A stretch of 43,569 bases of DNA, taken from assembly GCA_903920435.1 (NCBI GenBank), contig CAIXMB010000183.1, forward strand, positions 1 through 43,569. Reading direction: 5' to 3'. The notes beneath the pieces are model-generated. The model had not been told where the DNA came from. It saw only the letters and a program-made list of their open reading frames with translations, and made no database searches. This document shows positions 16,261-38,538 of the stretch, piece by piece (position 1 is the first letter of the stretch; each line of letters opens with the position of its first letter). The DNA is from an uncultured Actinomycetes bacterium. GTDB lineage: Bacteria > Actinomycetota > Actinomycetes > Actinomycetales > Microbacteriaceae. The position numbers and the translations under genes were made by a program.

Positions 16261-17028
16261 TCACCGGTCGAATGCCGGTCGCTTGGGCGTGATGTTGTCG
16301 CCCGACGACTGGTGGCGCACGCGCCGCAGCACCCACGGCACGAGGTACTCCCGCGCCCAGCCGATGTCTTCCGCACGCGCCTGGCGCCAGCGCCGGGGCG
16401 GCAGCGGCTCCGGGTTGTAGGGCTCGAGCGCGTGATCGATGTTGAGCGCATCGAGCACCATCGCCGCGATCGTGTTGTGACCGATGGGGGAGAAGTGCAG
16501 GCGGTCGGGAGCCCACATCCGTGGGTCTGCCAGCTCGCGCAACGCCCACATGTCGGCGACGATGCAGTCGTGCCGCTGCGCTATCGCGCGCAGGTTCTCG
16601 TTGTAGATCGCGACCTTGCCGCGCACGCGGCCGAGCACCGGGGTCATGCCGATGTCCGGGCCGTTGAACATGACGACCGTCGCCCCGTCGCTGCGCAGGC
16701 GCTCGATCATCGACTCGAAGCGGCGTGACACGTCGTCGGCGTCCGTGCCGGGGCGGATGATGTCGTTGCCGCCCGCTGAGACGGTGATCAGGTCGGGCTT
16801 GAGCTCGAGCGCGGCGTCAACCTGTTCGTCGGAGATCTGCTGCAGGAGCCGCCCGCGGATCGCGAGGTTCGCGTAGGCGAAGTCGTCGGTCTGCGCGGCG
16901 AGCACCTCGGCGACGCGATCCGCCCAGCCGCGGTGCCCGCCCGGGCTCTGGGGCTCGGGGTCGCCGATGCCCTCCGTGAACGAATCGCCGATCGCGACGT
17001 ACCTGCTCCAGGGATGCTGCTGTGCCAT
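16261..17028 (-). CDS. SGNH/GDSL hydrolase
   Basis: 255 residues. Block I is YVAIGDSFTEGIGD with the nucleophilic serine, block II glycine is in NLAIRGR, block III is SAGGNDI and block V is DRLHFSPIGHN with the catalytic Asp-His pair. The enzyme should be an esterase or lipase acting on a small ester; no signal peptide is visible, so it is probably cytosolic. The start is supported by AATGCT (17040-17035) ending 7 nt before the ATG. Confidence 0.92.
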   Translation of the reverse strand: MAQQHPWSRYVAIGDSFTEGIGDPEPQSPGGHRGWADRVAEVLAAQTDDFAYANLAIRGRLLQQISDEQVDAALELKPDLITVSAGGNDIIRPGTDADDVSRRFESMIERLRSDGATVVMFNGPDIGMTPVLGRVRGKVAIYNENLRAIAQRHDCIVADMWALRELADPRMWAPDRLHFSPIGHNTIAAMVLDALNIDHALEPYNPEPLPPRRWRQARAEDIGWAREYLVPWVLRRVRHQSSGDNITPKRPAFDR

Positions 17029-31961: not shown

Positions 31962-32801
31962 ATGGTTATGGACCACATGACTCTCGCCATCACAGGCTCC
32001 ACCGGACACGTCGGCGGAATGGTCGCCATCCACATGCGCGATCTCGATCCGCTGCTGCTGGTGCGCGACGTCGATCGCGCGCCCGACGGCTACCGCACCG
32101 CCGAGACCACCTACGCGGACGCGGCACGCACCCGATCGGCGCTGACGGGCATCGACGTGCTCTTCATGGTCTCGGCGTCGGAATCACCGCACCGCCGCGA
32201 GGAGCACCGCACGTTCATCCGCGCCGCCGCCGACGCGGGCGTCGCGCACATCGTCTACACGTCGTTCTTCGGCGCGGATCCCGGCGCGATCTTCACCCTC
32301 GGCCGCGATCACGCCGACGCCGAGGCGGCGATCCGCGAGTCGGGCATGCGCTTCACGTTCCTGCGCGACAACTTCTACTCCGACTTGCTCCCGTTCTTCG
32401 CGGACGAGTCCGGAGTCATCCGCGGCCCGGCGGGCGACGGCAGGGTGGCCGCGGTCGCTCGAGCCGACGTCGCGGATGTGGCGGCCGCCGTGCTGCGCCA
32501 GCCCGCACACCACGTCGACGCCGTGTACGAGCTGACCGGGCCGGAGGCCCTCACGCTCGACGAGGTCGCCGCTCGGGCCGGCGCCGTGATCGGCAAGCCG
32601 CTGCGCTACGAGCGGGAGACGCTCGCGGAGGCCTACGGTTCTCGCCGCCAGTACAGCGAGGAGCAGTGGCAGCTCGACGCCTGGGTGAGCACCTACACGG
32701 CCATCGCCGACGGCGAGGTCGCGCGGGTCACCGACGACGTGCAGCGGGTCGCGGGGCATCCGGCGCGCAGCATCGAGGAAGCGCTGCGCTCGACCGTATA
32801 G
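31962..32801 (+). CDS. NmrA-like NAD(P)-binding reductase
   Basis: 279 residues of the atypical short-chain dehydrogenase group. The dinucleotide-binding motif is AITGSTGHVGG (residues 8-18) and VYTSFFGADPG plus TFLRDNFYSDLLPFF match NmrA/QOR2-like quinone oxidoreductases. No YxxxK catalytic pair is evident, so it may be a redox sensor or reductase. ATGs at 31962, 31968 and 31977 are all possible; none has a clear Shine-Dalgarno and CAGGCT (31955-31960) slightly favours 31968. Confidence 0.87.
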   Translation: MVMDHMTLAITGSTGHVGGMVAIHMRDLDPLLLVRDVDRAPDGYRTAETTYADAARTRSALTGIDVLFMVSASESPHRREEHRTFIRAAADAGVAHIVYTSFFGADPGAIFTLGRDHADAEAAIRESGMRFTFLRDNFYSDLLPFFADESGVIRGPAGDGRVAAVARADVADVAAAVLRQPAHHVDAVYELTGPEALTLDEVAARAGAVIGKPLRYERETLAEAYGSRRQYSEEQWQLDAWVSTYTAIADGEVARVTDDVQRVAGHPARSIEEALRSTV

Positions 32802-32885
32802 CCATTCTGAGCGCGGCGATCAATCCCCCTCCCGCACGCAACCCGTTTGCCTATCCTGAAACGAACCAAGATCAGGAGGTGCATC

Positions 32886-34328
32886 GTGACTGACGGGTTG
32901 CAATCGAGGTACCGGCTGGGCGAACTGATCGCGAGCGGCGGGATGGCGCAGGTCTACCGCGCCCGTGACGAGTTCTTGGGCAGGGATGTCGCGGTCAAGA
33001 TCTTCCACGCGAGCGCGACCGCGGAGCTGGATTTCCGGCGTCAGGAGGACGAGGTCAACGTGCTCGCGCGCCTCAACCACCCCAACCTCGTGACGCTGCT
33101 GGATGCCGCAGTCGACAGGAGCGACCCCGCCGCCACCCGCATCTACTACGTCATGGAGCTCGTGGAGGGCACCGACCTCAAACGCCGACTCGACGAGGGG
33201 CCGCTCGGCGCGCGCCAGATCGCCCAGCTCGGGTACTACGCCGCCTCCGCGCTCGAGTACGTGCATGCGCAGGGGATCGTGCACCGCGACGTGAAGCCCG
33301 CGAACGTGCTCCTGAGCATCGACGAGGACGGATCGCGCCTCACAGCCAAGCTCGGGGACTTCGGGGTCGCGTCGATCGGACCGGCCGAGCCCATCTCCGA
33401 CGACGAGGTGGTCACCGGCACGGTGGCCTACCTGAGCCCGGAGCAGGCTCGCGGCGAGGAGGTCGGTGCCGCGAGCGACGTCTACTCCCTCGGTCTCGTA
33501 CTCCTGCAGTGCTTCACGGGCGAGCTCGCCTTCCCGGGCCCGCCCCAGCATTCCGCGATGGCGCGGCTGCTCGACGATCCGGTGATCGGCGATACGGTGC
33601 CGCAGGACTGGGCGCCGCTGCTGAGCGCGATGACGGCGCGCGAGCCGCGCGAGCGCCCTGACATCCACGACGTCGCGCTGGCGCTGCGGCAGATGTTCGC
33701 TGCGGAGACCGGCCGCCACAAGGCCGACCCCGAACGCCCGGAGAACGAGATCGAGCGCCTTGGCGCCGTGCGCCGGTACGACGTGCTCGACTCGCCGCCG
33801 GATGACGCGTTCGACCGCATCACGGCAATGGCGGCACGCGTGCTGCGGGTGCCCGTCTCGATCGTGAGCGTCGTGGACGACGACCGCATCTGGTTCACGT
33901 CTGCCCACGGCCTGGATGTGCGCGAGATCGCCCGTGACCCAGGGCTCTGCGCGTCCGCGATCCTGTACCACGAGCCGTGGGTCATCGAGGATGCCCGCCA
34001 CGACCCGCGCGCGGCAGCCAACCCGCTCGTGGCGGGGGAGTTCGGCCTGCAGTTCTACGCCGGCGTTCCCCTCACCACCCCCGACGGCTACAACCTCGGA
34101 ACGTTGTGCGTGCTCGACTTCGCGCCCCGCACGATCTCGCCCGACGAGCTCGCGACGCTCTCCGACCTGGCGTCGATGGTCATGCGCGAGCTCGAGCTGC
34201 GCCGGGAGGCGAGGGAGTTGCAGGCCAAGGAGGCGCTGCTCCTGAACTCGCCGGACACCGACGAATACGGGTCGCTCATCACGAACCGCTCATCCACCGG
34301 GCCCATCGAACTGGCCACCTCTCCGTGA
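32886..34328 (+). CDS. Serine/threonine protein kinase with C-terminal GAF domain
   Basis: 480 residues. The Hanks-type kinase (residues 9-270) is complete: Gly-rich loop IASGGMAQVY, K38 in VAVK, H133-R134-D135 in IVHRDVKPANVLL, DFG at 158-160, and SPEQARG in the activation segment. Residues 290-455 form a GAF domain (RRYDVLDSPPDDAFDRI, RIWFTSAHG, FYAGVPL, GTLCVLD). There is no TM segment and no PASTA repeat, so this is a soluble kinase that probably senses a small molecule, light or redox through GAF. AGGAGG (32874-32879) sets the GTG start at 32886. The next gene carries a related GAF, suggesting one signalling unit. Confidence 0.93.
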   Translation: MTDGLQSRYRLGELIASGGMAQVYRARDEFLGRDVAVKIFHASATAELDFRRQEDEVNVLARLNHPNLVTLLDAAVDRSDPAATRIYYVMELVEGTDLKRRLDEGPLGARQIAQLGYYAASALEYVHAQGIVHRDVKPANVLLSIDEDGSRLTAKLGDFGVASIGPAEPISDDEVVTGTVAYLSPEQARGEEVGAASDVYSLGLVLLQCFTGELAFPGPPQHSAMARLLDDPVIGDTVPQDWAPLLSAMTAREPRERPDIHDVALALRQMFAAETGRHKADPERPENEIERLGAVRRYDVLDSPPDDAFDRITAMAARVLRVPVSIVSVVDDDRIWFTSAHGLDVREIARDPGLCASAILYHEPWVIEDARHDPRAAANPLVAGEFGLQFYAGVPLTTPDGYNLGTLCVLDFAPRTISPDELATLSDLASMVMRELELRREARELQAKEALLLNSPDTDEYGSLITNRSSTGPIELATSP

Positions 34329-34428
34329 GTCGTGCCCCGGCCGCTCGGGGGCCCGCGGGTTAGAATTGGGGTACGCGCAACCCGCTCCATGGTTGGCGCC
34401 ATCCGGGTTCACCGTTCGAAGGGGAGCG

Positions 34429-35619
34429 ATGCTGGGGTACATCCTGCACGGTATCGCCAACCCCGTGGGCAGGCTCTGGATGGCCACATCGTCGCAGTCG
34501 TGGCGCCACCTGCCGACTCCGTCGGACGCGCCACTCGTGCACGCCCCCGGTTCCGACTCAGACCGGGTGCTCCTCGTCGGTTCGGGCGTCGCGGTGGGGT
34601 ACGGCGTGATGTCCCATGACCTCGCCCTGGGCGGGCACCTCGCACGCGCACTGAGCGCGCACACCGGGCGAGGGGCATCCGTCGACATCCTCGGTCGCCG
34701 CGACATGTCTCCCTCGAACACGAGCGCGTACCTCGCGAGCCTCGACCTCGCGCGCTTCGACGCCCTCGTGCTCATGCTGGGCGGGCTCGAGGGCTTCACC
34801 CTCATGCCCCCGACGCTGTGGCGCAGGCAGCTGCGGCAGCTGCTCGTCGACCTGCAGGCGATGGCGCCCGCGAGCCTGAAGATCTTCGCCGTGGAGATCG
34901 GCACGCCACTTCTCGGCGGCATTCCCCGCGGCTACCGCTCCCTCATCGCCCATCACGTGGCACGACTCAACGCCGAGACCCGGTCGCTGTGCGGGGAGTT
35001 CGACGGGGTGACCTTCGTCGCCTTCGCCCCTGCGCACGGCGACGTCAGCACCCTCACGGGCCGCACGACGTACCAGGGGTGGGCGGAACTGATCGCCCCC
35101 GTTGTCGCCGACGTGCTCGATGGCGAGGTGCGCACGCGCGCGTCGCTCTCCATCGATGAGCACGCGCGATCGGCGGCCATCGACTCGCTCGACCTCGACG
35201 CGCCGAACCCCGAGTTGGACGCGATTGTCGAGACTGCGCGCGACCTGTTCGGCGCCACCGGCGCGTCGGTGACCATCATCGACCACGATCTGCAGCGCAC
35301 GCGGGCCGCCGTGGGCATGCCCAGGCACCCCATCCCGCGCACAGAGGCGATCTGCGACCTCACCATCCGGGGTACCGGCGTCTTCGTCGTCGAGGACATC
35401 ACCACAGACGCCCGGCTTGCCGATTCGATGTGGGCGGATGGCACGCTCGCGCGCTTCTACGCGGGCTACCCGGTCGAGTCGCCGGACGGCCAGCGCATCG
35501 GCGCCCTGTGCATCGTCGACAGCACCCCGCGGACCTTCAGCGACACGGATGCCGCCCTGCTGCGCCAACTCGCACTGCGCGTGCAGTCCGCGCTCTGGGG
35601 AACCCGGGTCTTCCGCTAG
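34429..35619 (+). CDS. SGNH-like domain protein with C-terminal GAF domain
   Basis: 396 residues. Residues 45-235 look like an SGNH-type alpha/beta fold (DRVLLVGSGVAVGYG, then VLMLGGLEGF, then TYQGWAELIAPVV), but the GDS nucleophile is replaced by GSG, and the GGND and DxxH blocks are not intact, so esterase activity is doubtful. Residues 250-396 are a GAF domain homologous to that of the kinase upstream (FYAGYPVESPDGQRIGALC versus FYAGVPLTTPDGYNLGTLC). GGGGAG at 34420-34425 supports ATG 34429 over the open frame from 34366. A GAF-less paralog lies 1.1 kb downstream. Confidence 0.85.
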   Translation: MLGYILHGIANPVGRLWMATSSQSWRHLPTPSDAPLVHAPGSDSDRVLLVGSGVAVGYGVMSHDLALGGHLARALSAHTGRGASVDILGRRDMSPSNTSAYLASLDLARFDALVLMLGGLEGFTLMPPTLWRRQLRQLLVDLQAMAPASLKIFAVEIGTPLLGGIPRGYRSLIAHHVARLNAETRSLCGEFDGVTFVAFAPAHGDVSTLTGRTTYQGWAELIAPVVADVLDGEVRTRASLSIDEHARSAAIDSLDLDAPNPELDAIVETARDLFGATGASVTIIDHDLQRTRAAVGMPRHPIPRTEAICDLTIRGTGVFVVEDITTDARLADSMWADGTLARFYAGYPVESPDGQRIGALCIVDSTPRTFSDTDAALLRQLALRVQSALWGTRVFR

Positions 35620-36203
35620 CGCCGGCGCGGCCGCTTCTTCGGGGTGACAGCCCTGGGAGCGCGCGGAGGCTTGGGCGTCTTGGGGGTCGGCTCGCCGCGC
35701 GAGCTGTTCGCAGTGCGTCCGCGCACGATGCCGATGAACTCCTCGACCTCGGGGGTCGTCGTGAGCCAGACGAGGGCCACCTGCGTGTCGGGCGCGTCGA
35801 CGACGGGGCGCGCGACGACATCCTTGCGGCTGAGAGCGCGCGCGACGGACTGCGGCATGACGGCGACGCCCACGTTCGCGGCAACGAGCTCGACGTTCGC
35901 GGCCCAGTCGCCCTCGAGCACCCCCTCCAGCTCGGCCAGGTGCACGGAGTCGAGCGCCTCGACGACGTGGCCCTTGGGCACCACGACCACCGGCTTCTCC
36001 ACGTAGAGCGGTATCGAGCTGAGCGACTGGTCGTCCAGGGGGAGCCTGAGCAGCGCCACATCGGCGGCACCCGCCACGAGGGCGGCGACGGCGTCGGCGG
36101 AGGAGACCTGCGAGAGCGTGAGCGGATGCCGCGGCATCCGCTCGTTCCAGATGCCCGCCCACTTGCCGGGCGTCACGCCCAGCACGTAGGCGACGGTGAA
36201 CAT
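35616..36203 (-). CDS. LysR-type substrate-binding domain protein without HTH
   Basis: 195 residues. The protein begins directly in the effector-binding fold of LysR regulators (MFTVAYVLGVTPGKWAGIW, DVALLRLPLDDQSLSSIPLY, VAANVGVAVMPQSVARAL) and lacks the roughly 60-residue N-terminal winged helix. The C terminus is a Pro/Arg/Lys-rich basic tail ending KKRPRRR, which could contact nucleic acid. TAGCCT (36215-36210) ends 7 nt before the ATG. It is divergent from the DUF5997 gene, 23 bp apart, and its stop shares CTAG with the convergent SGNH-GAF gene. Confidence 0.88.
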   Translation of the reverse strand: MFTVAYVLGVTPGKWAGIWNERMPRHPLTLSQVSSADAVAALVAGAADVALLRLPLDDQSLSSIPLYVEKPVVVVPKGHVVEALDSVHLAELEGVLEGDWAANVELVAANVGVAVMPQSVARALSRKDVVARPVVDAPDTQVALVWLTTTPEVEEFIGIVRGRTANSSRGEPTPKTPKPPRAPRAVTPKKRPRRR

Positions 36204-36209
36204 GGCCTC

Positions 36210-36219
36210 AGGCTACCCT
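36210..36219. promoter_or_regulatory. Overlapping divergent -10 elements of LysR-domain and DUF5997 genes
   Basis: In the 23-bp gap, TAGCCT on the minus strand (36215-36210) and TACCCT on the plus strand (36214-36219) share the two base pairs TA at 36214-36215. They end 7 and 8 nt before the ATG (36203) and GTG (36227). The two promoters cannot be opened at the same time, giving a mutually exclusive switch. Confidence 0.6.
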
Positions 36220-36226
36220 TGACCCT

Positions 36227-36637
36227 GTGCCAGACCAGACCATGAAGCCCGCCACCGCGGCGAAGAAGCTCAACATCTACCTGCCGGCGACCCCGCAGGA
36301 GTTCCAGGACGGCGAGGTCACACGCAGCCAGTTCGTCGAACTGCAGGAGAACCCGCCCCAGTGGCTCCTCGACCTGCGCAAGAACGGGCCGCACCCGCGG
36401 CAGGAGGTCGCCCGCAAGCTCGGCATCTCGACGTCGGGCCTCGCCCGCGCCGGCGCCCCCGATGTGATGACCAGCGCCGAGATCAAGTCGCTGCTGGAGC
36501 AGAAGCCCGAATGGCTCGTCGTCGAGCGGGCCACGCACGCCGCGGTTCAGGAAGACAACGCGCGCATCAAGACCGAGCGCGCCGCGAAGGCGGAAGCGCG
36601 CGAGACGCGCGAGTCTGGCGGTGGCCGCGGGCGCTGA
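36227..36637 (+). CDS. DUF5997 family protein
   Basis: 136 residues starting MPDQTMKPATAAKKLNIYLP and containing FVELQENPPQWLLDLRKNGP, features of DUF5997, unknown function. QEVARKLGISTSGLARAG (about 62-79) looks like a helix-turn-helix, and the C terminus is a charged helix rich in Ala/Lys/Glu. GTG 36227 is used because of TACCCT (36214-36219); ATG 36242 is an alternative. The divergent HTH-less LysR domain gene makes a two-part regulator an attractive but unproven idea. Confidence 0.83.
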   Translation: MPDQTMKPATAAKKLNIYLPATPQEFQDGEVTRSQFVELQENPPQWLLDLRKNGPHPRQEVARKLGISTSGLARAGAPDVMTSAEIKSLLEQKPEWLVVERATHAAVQEDNARIKTERAAKAEARETRESGGGRGR

Positions 36638-36738
36638 GCCCGGCGGTCGTGCGCGGTACGGATCAGCGGCTCCCGCGTTCTGGGGGCAGTAAGTGATTGA
36701 TTCTCGCAATACACTGTCTTCCGAGGGGGAGGCAGACC

Positions 36739-37455
36739 ATGATGGAGTCGGTTCGCAAAGCGCTCATCGCGCCGCTGGTCGACCGGTGGTTGGCGACGTC
36801 CAGCCAGTCGTGGCGCACCCTTCCCGTTCCCTCGGGTCCGCCCGTCGCGCACACCGACGGCCCTGACCCCGACCGCGTGCTGCTCCTGGGAGCCGGCATC
36901 TCGATGGGCTACGGGATGAAGAGCCACGACCTCGCGCTGCCGGGCCAACTCGCGCGCCAGGTCTCGGACCTGACGGGTCGTGGAGTGCAGATCGATGTCG
37001 TGACGGGGGAGCACCTCACTCTCGACAACGCCTTCGCGAACCTCTCGGAGGCGCGGCTGCGCGAACTCGACGTCGTCATCGCGACCCCCGGCTCCCTGGA
37101 GAAGCTGCTACTCATGTCGGTGCCGGTCTGGCGCCAGCGGGTGGAGTTGCTGCTCGACCATTTCGCCACCAACGCGCCCGCGAGTCTGCGTGTGCTGTTC
37201 ATCGGCGTACCCGAGGTGTCGCACCTCGTCCGGATGCCCCGGCTCCTGGCCCTCATCGCCGACCGGTCCGCCCGCGCACTCAACACCTCGCTCGCGTCGG
37301 CCTGCGCCGCGCGTCCGTACGTGCAGTTCATCCCGTTCCGCCCCACGGAACCGGTGGGGCGCGACGGCACGGGGCGCACCTACGAGCGGTGGGCGTCACT
37401 GATCGCCCCGCAGGTCGCGGGCGCGCTCGACGAGCACCAGCGGGTTTCGCACTAG
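36739..37455 (+). CDS. SGNH-like domain protein, GAF-less paralog
   Basis: 238 residues, clearly paralogous to residues 1-240 of the SGNH-GAF protein: WLATSSQSWRTLP / WMATSSQSWRHLP, DRVLLLGAGISMGYGMKSHD / DRVLLVGSGVAVGYGVMSHD, TGRGVQIDVV / TGRGASVDIL, NAPASLRVLFI / MAPASLKIFAV. The GDS nucleophile is again missing (GAGIS), suggesting a binding rather than catalytic role. GGGGGAGG (36725-36732) supports ATG 36739 over the frame opening at 36697. No GAF follows; the gene ends in DEHQRVSH. Confidence 0.82.
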   Translation: MMESVRKALIAPLVDRWLATSSQSWRTLPVPSGPPVAHTDGPDPDRVLLLGAGISMGYGMKSHDLALPGQLARQVSDLTGRGVQIDVVTGEHLTLDNAFANLSEARLRELDVVIATPGSLEKLLLMSVPVWRQRVELLLDHFATNAPASLRVLFIGVPEVSHLVRMPRLLALIADRSARALNTSLASACAARPYVQFIPFRPTEPVGRDGTGRTYERWASLIAPQVAGALDEHQRVSH

Positions 37456-37471
37456 CTGTAGCGTTGAGGGT

Positions 37472-37485
37472 GGCGCACGTGCGCC
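37472..37485. promoter_or_regulatory. 14-bp perfect palindrome upstream of the DarT-like gene
   Basis: GGCGCACGTGCGCC is self-complementary over all 14 bases. TAGCGT (37459-37464) just upstream could be the -10 element, so the palindrome would sit at the transcription start, a repressor-like position. Hairpin formation is less likely since no loop remains. Confidence 0.5.
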
Positions 37486-37509
37486 GCGCAACACGAAGGA
37501 CGAACCCCA

Positions 37510-38232
37510 GTGCCAGAGTGCATCCACGGCCTCGAGATCCCGCTCTGCGATATCTGCTACCCCAAGACCCCACCGCCCAAGGTCGCTGTGGTGCGCGCGC
37601 CGCGGGTCTCTGCGCCCCGCCTCGCAGGGGCGGTGAAGACCTCCCGCACGTCGATCGATCCCGCGCGGCAGCGCGTGTACCACGTGACCCACATCCGCAA
37701 CCTCGAGGGCATCCTCGACACCGGCGCGATCAGCGCCGACACGCCACCCGTCGTCGACCTGAGCGCCGACCTCACGCGCGAGCTCAGGCTCACCGCCGAG
37801 GTCGCTCCCGGCAGCAGCGTGGCGCAGCACGTGCCCTTCTACCTCGCGCCGAGTGCGGCGCTGTGGGACGACCTGCGCCGGGGCGCGGACGACGAGACGC
37901 GGTGGTCCGCCGCCGCGCGGTCCGCGGCATCCGCCGACTTCGTGGTCCTCGTGACGACCGTGGCCCTGCTCGGCGAAGGCGCGGTGATCGCCGACGGCGA
38001 CGCTGCGGCGACCTTCACGCGCTTCGCTACGGGAGACGAGCTCGGCCGCGCGCTAACCCGCCTGCACGACTCGGAGGGCCTCGACGCCGCCGAGGTTCTC
38101 GTGCCGTCCGCGGTGCCCTACGACACGATCCAGCTCATCGGAGTCGCCAACGACCGGGTGCGCGACCGCGTGCGCGAACTCACGTCGACGAAGGTCGCCG
38201 TCTACCCGCCCTGGTTCATCGCCGAGCTGTAG
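37510..38232 (+). CDS. DarT-like (DUF4433) ADP-ribosyltransferase domain protein with N-terminal zinc motif
   Basis: 240 residues. The DarT hallmarks are YHVTHIRNLEGILDTG (57-72), an Arg-rich stretch LTRELRL (88-94), VPFYLAPSA (108-116) and AEVLVPSAVP with the presumed catalytic E195. Canonical DarT adds ADP-ribose to thymidine in single-stranded DNA and is a toxin held in check by the macrodomain protein DarG; no macrodomain gene is adjacent. An N-terminal C4-H6-C13-C16 cluster (CIHGLEIPLCDIC) probably binds zinc and is not part of classical DarT. GTG start with GAAGGA about 10 nt upstream. Either a solitary regulator or a toxin with an unlinked antidote. Confidence 0.82.
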   Translation: MPECIHGLEIPLCDICYPKTPPPKVAVVRAPRVSAPRLAGAVKTSRTSIDPARQRVYHVTHIRNLEGILDTGAISADTPPVVDLSADLTRELRLTAEVAPGSSVAQHVPFYLAPSAALWDDLRRGADDETRWSAAARSAASADFVVLVTTVALLGEGAVIADGDAAATFTRFATGDELGRALTRLHDSEGLDAAEVLVPSAVPYDTIQLIGVANDRVRDRVRELTSTKVAVYPPWFIAEL

Positions 38233-38235
38233 CGC

Positions 38236-38538
38236 CTAGGCGGCGAGCGTGCCGATCAGGCGCCATACCGTGCGAGTGAGTGGCGGATGTGCGAGTGCGA
38301 TCTGCCGGAGCACTCGGTACTCCCGGGTCGGGCTGGGGCGCGCACCGTCGTTGGCGCTGATGGCATCGGCGCGCAGCAGGTAGACCACGAGCTCGTCGAC
38401 GGTCGGAAGCTGCTCCATGAACTCCCACGGGTCCTCGCCCGCGAGGAGCCGCTCGTGGATGACGGTCTCGAGCTCCTGCGCGGCCTCGGCGCGCAGCACC
38501 TCGAGGCTCGCCCGTTCGAGCCCCCGGAATTCGCCCAC
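38236..38538 (-). CDS. Hypothetical protein
   Basis: 100 residues starting VGEFRGLERASLEVLRAEAA, mostly alpha-helical, with EDPWEFMEQLPTVDELVVYL in the middle and a basic C-terminal helix. I recognise no family. TAGGGT (38550-38545) ends 7 nt before the second of two adjacent GTG codons (38538), so that one is chosen. Convergent with the DarT-like gene, 3 bp between stops, and divergent from the Eis-like gene. Not macrodomain-like, so not a DarG. Confidence 0.75.
   Translation of the reverse strand: MGEFRGLERASLEVLRAEAAQELETVIHERLLAGEDPWEFMEQLPTVDELVVYLLRADAISANDGARPSPTREYRVLRQIALAHPPLTRTVWRLIGTLAA

Follow-up and report, generated by a model that had tools for sequence, protein, structure and literature searches.

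By fold and ancestry, the SGNH/GDSL hydrolases (PF13472, clan CL0264) are described relatives of two proteins encoded in a 43,569-nucleotide stretch of DNA from an uncultured bacterium of the Microbacteriaceae (contig CAIXMB010000183.1; the whole stretch is hereafter the window): S-G, in which a degenerate SGNH-fold domain precedes a C-terminal GAF domain, and a GAF-less paralog, which we call solo S. The sequence profile of their family (the S family) also finds canonical relatives carrying the GDS block; unlike the hydrolases, however, the window copies lack the nucleophile serine, the block III asparagine and the block V histidine, and one of them is fused to GAF. Oskar, too, combines an SGNH fold without catalytic function with another domain: its OSK domain (PF17182) has been reported to resemble an enzymatically inactive SGNH hydrolase and to bind RNA (PMC4754038), and its second domain has been reported to dimerise (PMC6191285; on Oskar see also PMC7250577). 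OSK is, by analogy, a precedent for an inactive, RNA-binding SGNH domain, but Oskar is an insect germ-plasm protein and the Pfam OSK model matches the S family weakly (two of 42 members, best E-value 0.025).

On the GAF side, this domain has been reported as one of those most often attached to kinases in prokaryotes (PMC2877116), and K-G, the protein encoded just upstream of S-G, is such a GAF-bearing bacterial Ser/Thr kinase. The closest solved relative of the S-G GAF domain belongs to DcsBis (4zmu), a diguanylate cyclase of Pseudomonas aeruginosa (33% identity); unlike DcsBis, S-G lacks GGDEF and any other output domain. In the open-access literature searched (subscription papers lay outside the search), we found no GAF-bearing kinase linked to an SGNH-like partner, no description of an SGNH-GAF family and, in keeping with the original prediction, which had been made from the DNA letters, no described system that matches the locus. 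A large bacterial family joining a dead SGNH domain to GAF thus seems undescribed. We read S-G as a pseudoenzyme sensor or adaptor built on the dead SGNH fold, and give this reading about an even chance of being right. The features on which it bears are the following:

32886..34328, plus strand: K-G, a soluble Hanks-type Ser/Thr kinase with a C-terminal GAF domain (480 amino acids; Pfam); kinase domain at about 32910-33674, GAF at about 33798-34190
34429..35619, plus strand: S-G, degenerate SGNH-fold domain and C-terminal GAF, without output domain (396 amino acids); SGNH-like part at about 34429-35136, GAF at about 35215-35595
34489..34506, plus strand: SSQSWR segment of S-G (amino acids 21-26; from sequence, clade-limited)
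34579..34587, plus strand: GSG replacing the GDS nucleophile block in S-G (amino acids 51-53)
34612..34629, plus strand: SHDLAL motif of S-G (amino acids 62-67), with the His that is usual in the derived family (Gln in ten canonical relatives)
36739..37455, plus strand: solo S, the SGNH-like paralog without GAF (238 amino acids, starting at ATG 36739)
36799..36816, plus strand: SSQSWR segment of solo S (from sequence)
36889..36897, plus strand: GAG replacing GDS in solo S
36922..36939, plus strand: SHDLAL motif of solo S (from sequence)

All three genes are real and lie where they had been placed, with slightly changed starts: K-G begins at GTG 32886, with AGGAGG upstream, the best start of S-G is ATG 34429, with AGGGGAG upstream, and a purine-rich site precedes solo S as it does the other two. 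No sigma-70-type promoter or intrinsic terminator was found within 32780-38300. Pfam confirmed the kinase (Pkinase, PF00069, 1.7e-43 at amino acids 9-263) and GAF (5.4e-15 at amino acids 305-435) assignments of K-G, whose sequence contains the kinase motifs VAVK, HRDVKPAN and DFG. K-G falls outside the PknB/Stk1 PASTA kinases, as it scores 219.9 bits against an NCBIfam cut-off of 450 and has GAF as its C-terminus. The GAF model PF01590 exceeds its gathering score of 22.4 bits in both K-G (56.5 bits) and S-G (41.4 bits, E 2.5e-10). Solo S is, as had been proposed, a duplicated GAF-less copy: it is 44% identical to the N-terminal domain of S-G and shares with it the SSQSWR and YG-x2-SHDLAL motifs.

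Pfam gave no match at E ≤ 1 for the N-terminal domain of S-G or for solo S, and the family profile gave only marginal matches to PDB sequences (best E 0.058). The SGNH-like fold that had been predicted is nevertheless borne out by structure prediction for both proteins. AlphaFold2 models, for which 16 sequences from the window and the named loci were aligned, have a mean predicted local distance difference test score (pLDDT) of 82.7 for S-G and 86.5 for solo S and support the alpha/beta/alpha arrangement of SGNH proteins. In a Foldseek search with the model of solo S, the top 15 ranks (E 3.8e-6 to 1.3e-4) all go to GDSL esterases, lipases and TesA, the matches including 7e16, 8ik1, 6nkd (GDSL), 2q0s (an aryl esterase of M. 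smegmatis) and TesA; further down, and telling against the assignment, small GTPases and other different alpha/beta folds appear as well (from E 1.3e-4 to weaker values). In addition, the Pfam GDSL model (PF13472) matches 32 of the 42 family members scanned at E ≤ 0.1 (best 1.5e-12), the S-G domain of the window not being one of them. An N-terminal amphipathic membrane helix was considered as a common anchor and rejected, because the helix moment is 0.41 in S-G and 0.03 in solo S.

With the S-G model, the Foldseek results are dominated by GAF. They bear on the proposal that GAF is the active part, for example as a free-methionine sulfoxide reductase-like enzyme, and that the SGNH-like part merely positions it. 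Such reductases do occur among the matches (3mmh, 4mmn), but the best one is the GAF domain of the cyclase DcsBis (E 3.1e-14), and we hold this proposal to be very improbable.

The loss of catalytic residues was followed in 148 distinct domains, obtained from stop-to-stop frames matching the family profile in the collected loci; frames were preferred for family counts since gene callers had missed S genes at several loci. As the loci were picked by profile match, the shares given here describe the family as that profile finds it. Sorting by tree and motif yielded 10 canonical, 10 intermediate and 128 derived domains (96 with GAF and 32 without). All ten canonical relatives keep GDS, whereas the nucleophile position of the derived domains is occupied by Gly in 119, Ser in one and another residue in eight. 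The block III Asn is kept by 46 of the 128 derived domains, the window copies reading GGLE and GSLE instead, and the block V His (DxxHPS), which the canonical sequences aligned with them do have, is missing from both window copies. The degraded nucleophile noted in both copies at the outset (GSG and GAG for GDS) is a trait of the family and does not stand alone: S-G and solo S alike have none of the three catalytic residues Ser, Asn and His. Between the two extremes, the intermediate relatives keep the Asp of GDS in nine of ten cases, the Ser in three and the block III Asn in none, and thus form, as far as sequence can tell, a stepwise series of active-site loss. Examples of this group are L081:5207-6139, L084:4912-5703, L087:5267-6079 and L091:4586-5569, with six more.

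The derived domains also share a signature, namely the nucleophile-position Gly inside a GxGxxxGxG loop, two glycines of which are already present in canonical relatives, and a His in [ST]H[DE]. This His is found in 111 of the 128 derived and seven of the 10 intermediate domains but in none of the 10 canonical ones, which have Gln. Judged from these alignments, the change of the active site is specific and not random. In the SGNH lipase SrL, replacement of Ser, Asn or His by Ala has been reported to kill activity in each case (PMC10779480); because of this and of the lost residues, it is very unlikely that the derived domain works as an SGNH hydrolase. Could it have gained another catalytic activity, through the derived His and other residues? 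The conserved signature and the purifying selection described below are what one can cite in its favour, but the absence of Ser, Asn and His from the window copies, the patchy retention of the block III Asn and the inactive SrL mutants speak against it, and we regard a new activity as improbable.

Three further observations concern related sequences. The genome of the window holds five family matches, one of which is a canonical GDS copy (L008). An SGNH-looking protein encoded at 16261-17028 (minus strand) of the window has an intact GDSF motif, as read from its translation, and could serve as an active control. At L237:430-1893, a GAF protein has an N-terminal part resembling a still more diverged SGNH-like domain (FVGSGAV); this protein gave no domain match at 1e-3, and Pfam finds only GAF in it.

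The architecture of the fused proteins is uniform. In the 97 frames containing both domains, GAF lies behind the SGNH-like domain and ends the protein, with a tail of median length four amino acids (maximum 56), and no output domain was found. A crude test of domain order was passed by 93 of the 97, the four failures stemming from insignificant extra GAF matches or a small overlap. In a GAF tree (144 columns, 119 rows), the 99 S-G rows form one side (Shimodaira–Hasegawa-like approximate likelihood ratio test, SH-aLRT, 95), the ten K-G GAF domains another (SH-aLRT 96), and ten further GAF domains fall outside both clades. Six proteins that have the same GAF but neither a kinase nor an SGNH-like domain were compared with Pfam and proved to be five GAF-SpoIIE phosphatases and one GAF histidine kinase; such phosphatases are encoded in family genomes, for example at L244, L245 and L256. 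Kinase, phosphatase and pseudo-SGNH proteins of the Microbacteriaceae would thus share one sensor cassette. Since the S-G GAF domains occupy one side of the tree and other signalling proteins carry the same type, the SGNH-like domain and GAF were probably fused once, with a GAF type that is common to other signalling proteins. The homology between the GAF domains of K-G and S-G, which had been noticed in the original prediction, is accordingly real, but it is no private link between the two proteins.

An SGNH tree rooted with the canonical GDS relatives requires at least 14 changes of GAF state, with GAF-less copies scattered among fused ones at several places. In this tree the solos of the window type group apart from those that belong to a second clade of the genus.

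The ratio of nonsynonymous to synonymous substitution rates (dN/dS) indicates that S-G is under purifying selection: it is 0.02-0.12 in the 15 pairs formed by six second-clade orthologs of S-G, in which the dN values of the two halves lie within a factor of two, bar one near-identical pair. Solo S gives 0.12-0.24 in ten second-clade pairs, and K-G gives 0.23 in the single pair of the window clade. Many of the ortholog pairs have dS >1, so that these estimates are rough. Less favourable to our reading are the higher values of the window clade, 0.29-0.36 for S-G and 0.29-0.46 for solo S (three pairs each). This weaker constraint, together with the lost catalytic residues, is what would be seen if the SGNH-like genes were decaying esterase copies. 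However, dN/dS is well below 1 in every pair tested, 97 S-G genes have open frames and a genome may contain as many as nine family matches, and we find decay scarcely credible.

The family is found in all 27 genomes of the genus at E ≤ 1e-3; one of them (G021) shows the canonical GDS copy only, which leaves a derived member in 26. Among 199 Microbacteriaceae genomes, 87 have a match at E ≤ 1e-10 (nine at most in a single genome), and 64 have one at E ≤ 1e-35, a cut chosen to exclude canonical copies (that of the window's own genome scores 7.1e-31). At 1e-25, with 7 to 14 candidates per genome scored, one of 396 genomes matched in a sample of the phylum (the window's own), and five of 297 matched in a sample of the order: the window's own, three more from the Microbacteriaceae (one of these matches being canonical) and one from another family, which is canonical (GDS, HPS). 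Hence no derived member was found outside the Microbacteriaceae at this threshold in the two samples. Carriers include a Leifsonia sp. metagenome-assembled genome (MAG), three Rhodoglobus MAGs, a Salinibacterium MAG, Salinibacterium metalliresistens, Lacisediminihabitans profunda and a Frondihabitans plasmid. The plasmid copy is annotated as a "GAF domain-containing protein", and such proteins may be named only by one of their parts.

The scenario that we favour for S-G as a pseudoenzyme begins with a copy of an SGNH hydrolase that would have lost its catalytic Ser, Asn and His, kept its fold and gained the conserved signature. The trees suggest that this derived domain was then fused once to a C-terminal GAF and duplicated through the Microbacteriaceae. 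Its SGNH-like part may bind a ligand, a nucleic acid or a partner without cutting it, possibly where the active site used to be, and its GAF domain may sense or dimerise; having no output domain, S-G would therefore have to act through a partner. GAF-less copies would have arisen repeatedly, and in several lineages one is found next to an S-G gene, as if the pair were useful, with shared binding and different regulation. In the lineage of the window, the GAF-bearing kinase K-G is a neighbour and a possible partner. A more specific version, which we put forward as a long shot, is that the nucleophile elbow has become a Gly-rich beta1-alpha1 loop (GxGxxxGxG, with the His at the helix start) binding a nucleotide, a second messenger or RNA, so that S-G and the solos would form a large, lineage-specific family of candidate intracellular nucleotide or RNA sensors derived from a dead esterase, in some lineages paired with GAF kinases responding to that signal.

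Three neighbouring genes, all conserved at this place in the genus, have to be considered along with the kinase:

35616..36203, minus strand: LysR-substrate-binding-like protein (PF03466, 4e-21)
36227..36637, plus strand: DUF5997 protein (PF19460, 3.1e-49)
37510..38232, plus strand: DarT-like protein (PF14487, 1.6e-19, 70.9 bits; 55.1 bits against the NCBIfam DarT cut-off of 150)

The first two, absent from the original prediction, separate S-G from solo S. In the genus, family genes lie on both sides of the LysR/DUF5997 pair and ahead of the DarT-like gene. The window itself has them in the sequence K-G, S-G, LysR, DUF5997, solo, DarT-like; an extra S-G lies ahead of the solo in G004 and G019, and the locus of G013 is without K-G. 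In the second clade (ten genomes) the order is solo, LysR, DUF5997, S-G, DarT-like, so that fused and GAF-less copies accompany each other with their positions swapped. A solo adjoining an S-G gene also occurs in genus g59 (L146, L153). A fixed operon with common neighbours was rejected, the clustering of 614 neighbours having returned mainly genus synteny and tandem copies. The DarT-like gene is likewise an unlikely member of the system: it is present in 59 of 120 Microbacteriaceae genomes (in single copy in 58), but of the 33 that have an S gene among the matches listed (which extend to E ~3e-39) only six have the two within 10.5 kb of each other, and its position probably reflects synteny. 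Note that an AraC-family regulator is encoded upstream of one S subfamily, on the opposite strand, at six loci (L007, L065, L069, L130, L131 and L137; one copy was typed by Pfam).

The kinase is the looser element. A kinase gene (K-G, or a GAF-less form in G003) lies at the same locus, within ~3.2 kb of a family gene, in seven of the 27 genus genomes (G000, G003, G004, G009, G016, G019 and G023) and directly adjoins it in four (G000, G003, G004 and G019). The contig of G018 breaks off at the locus within a GAF fragment, so that this genome counts for neither outcome. Over the 199 Microbacteriaceae genomes (8 candidates per genome scored, S at E ≤ 1e-35), S is present in 29 of the 43 with a full-length K-G and in 35 of the 156 without one, an odds ratio of 7.2 with kinship ignored. 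In the window's own genome, the only matches of the K-G GAF besides itself are two S-G proteins (E ≤ 1e-3). Elsewhere, at L166:5082-8504, in another genus, S-G is followed 90 bases on, on the same strand, by a membrane-type Ser/Thr kinase differing in type from K-G. At L104:5036-6807, in Salinibacterium metalliresistens, 50 bases separate a kinase gene from an S gene; neither has a GAF part, and the 12.7 kb of sequence covered there contain none. This single case looks as a kinase-S pair would after joint loss of GAF.

These data leave room for an alternative without cooperation between the kinase and the SGNH-like genes: they would be held together by inherited synteny at the conserved LysR/DUF5997/DarT-like locus, and S-G would have its partners elsewhere. 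Several of the results count for this alternative and against a kinase partnership. A kinase is found at the locus in no more than the seven genus genomes just listed; among 60 other family loci from other genera (at three of which the gene caller found no S gene), L166 alone has a kinase neighbour; of the 43 genomes with K-G, 14 lack S, and of the 64 with S, 35 lack K-G; the K-G and S-G GAF domains form separate clades; and the second clade has solo and S-G at the locus but no K-G match covering the GAF. The joint absence of GAF, moreover, is confined to one species, whose genome has a GAF-bearing S-G elsewhere (G003, L045). On the other side stand the co-occurrence and that same species with its adjoining, GAF-less kinase and S genes. 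The co-occurrence that had been predicted therefore holds as a statistical tendency and fails as a rule, and we consider non-cooperation a serious though somewhat unlikely alternative. For the pseudoenzyme reading, it is possible that the kinase is a looser partner of the S family and a candidate partner in the window lineage.

The idea that SSQSWR is a target of the kinase finds no support. S-x-x-SWR is clade-limited (28 of the 128 derived domains), and it persists as SPHSWR in the solos of G006, G010, G015, G017 and G020, genomes whose best K-G match ends before the GAF.

Oskar already provides an example of a dead SGNH domain that serves in binding, to which a bacterial SGNH-GAF family would add. 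The family spans the range from intact to degenerate active sites inside one bacterial family, and it offers a testable pairing with a kinase.

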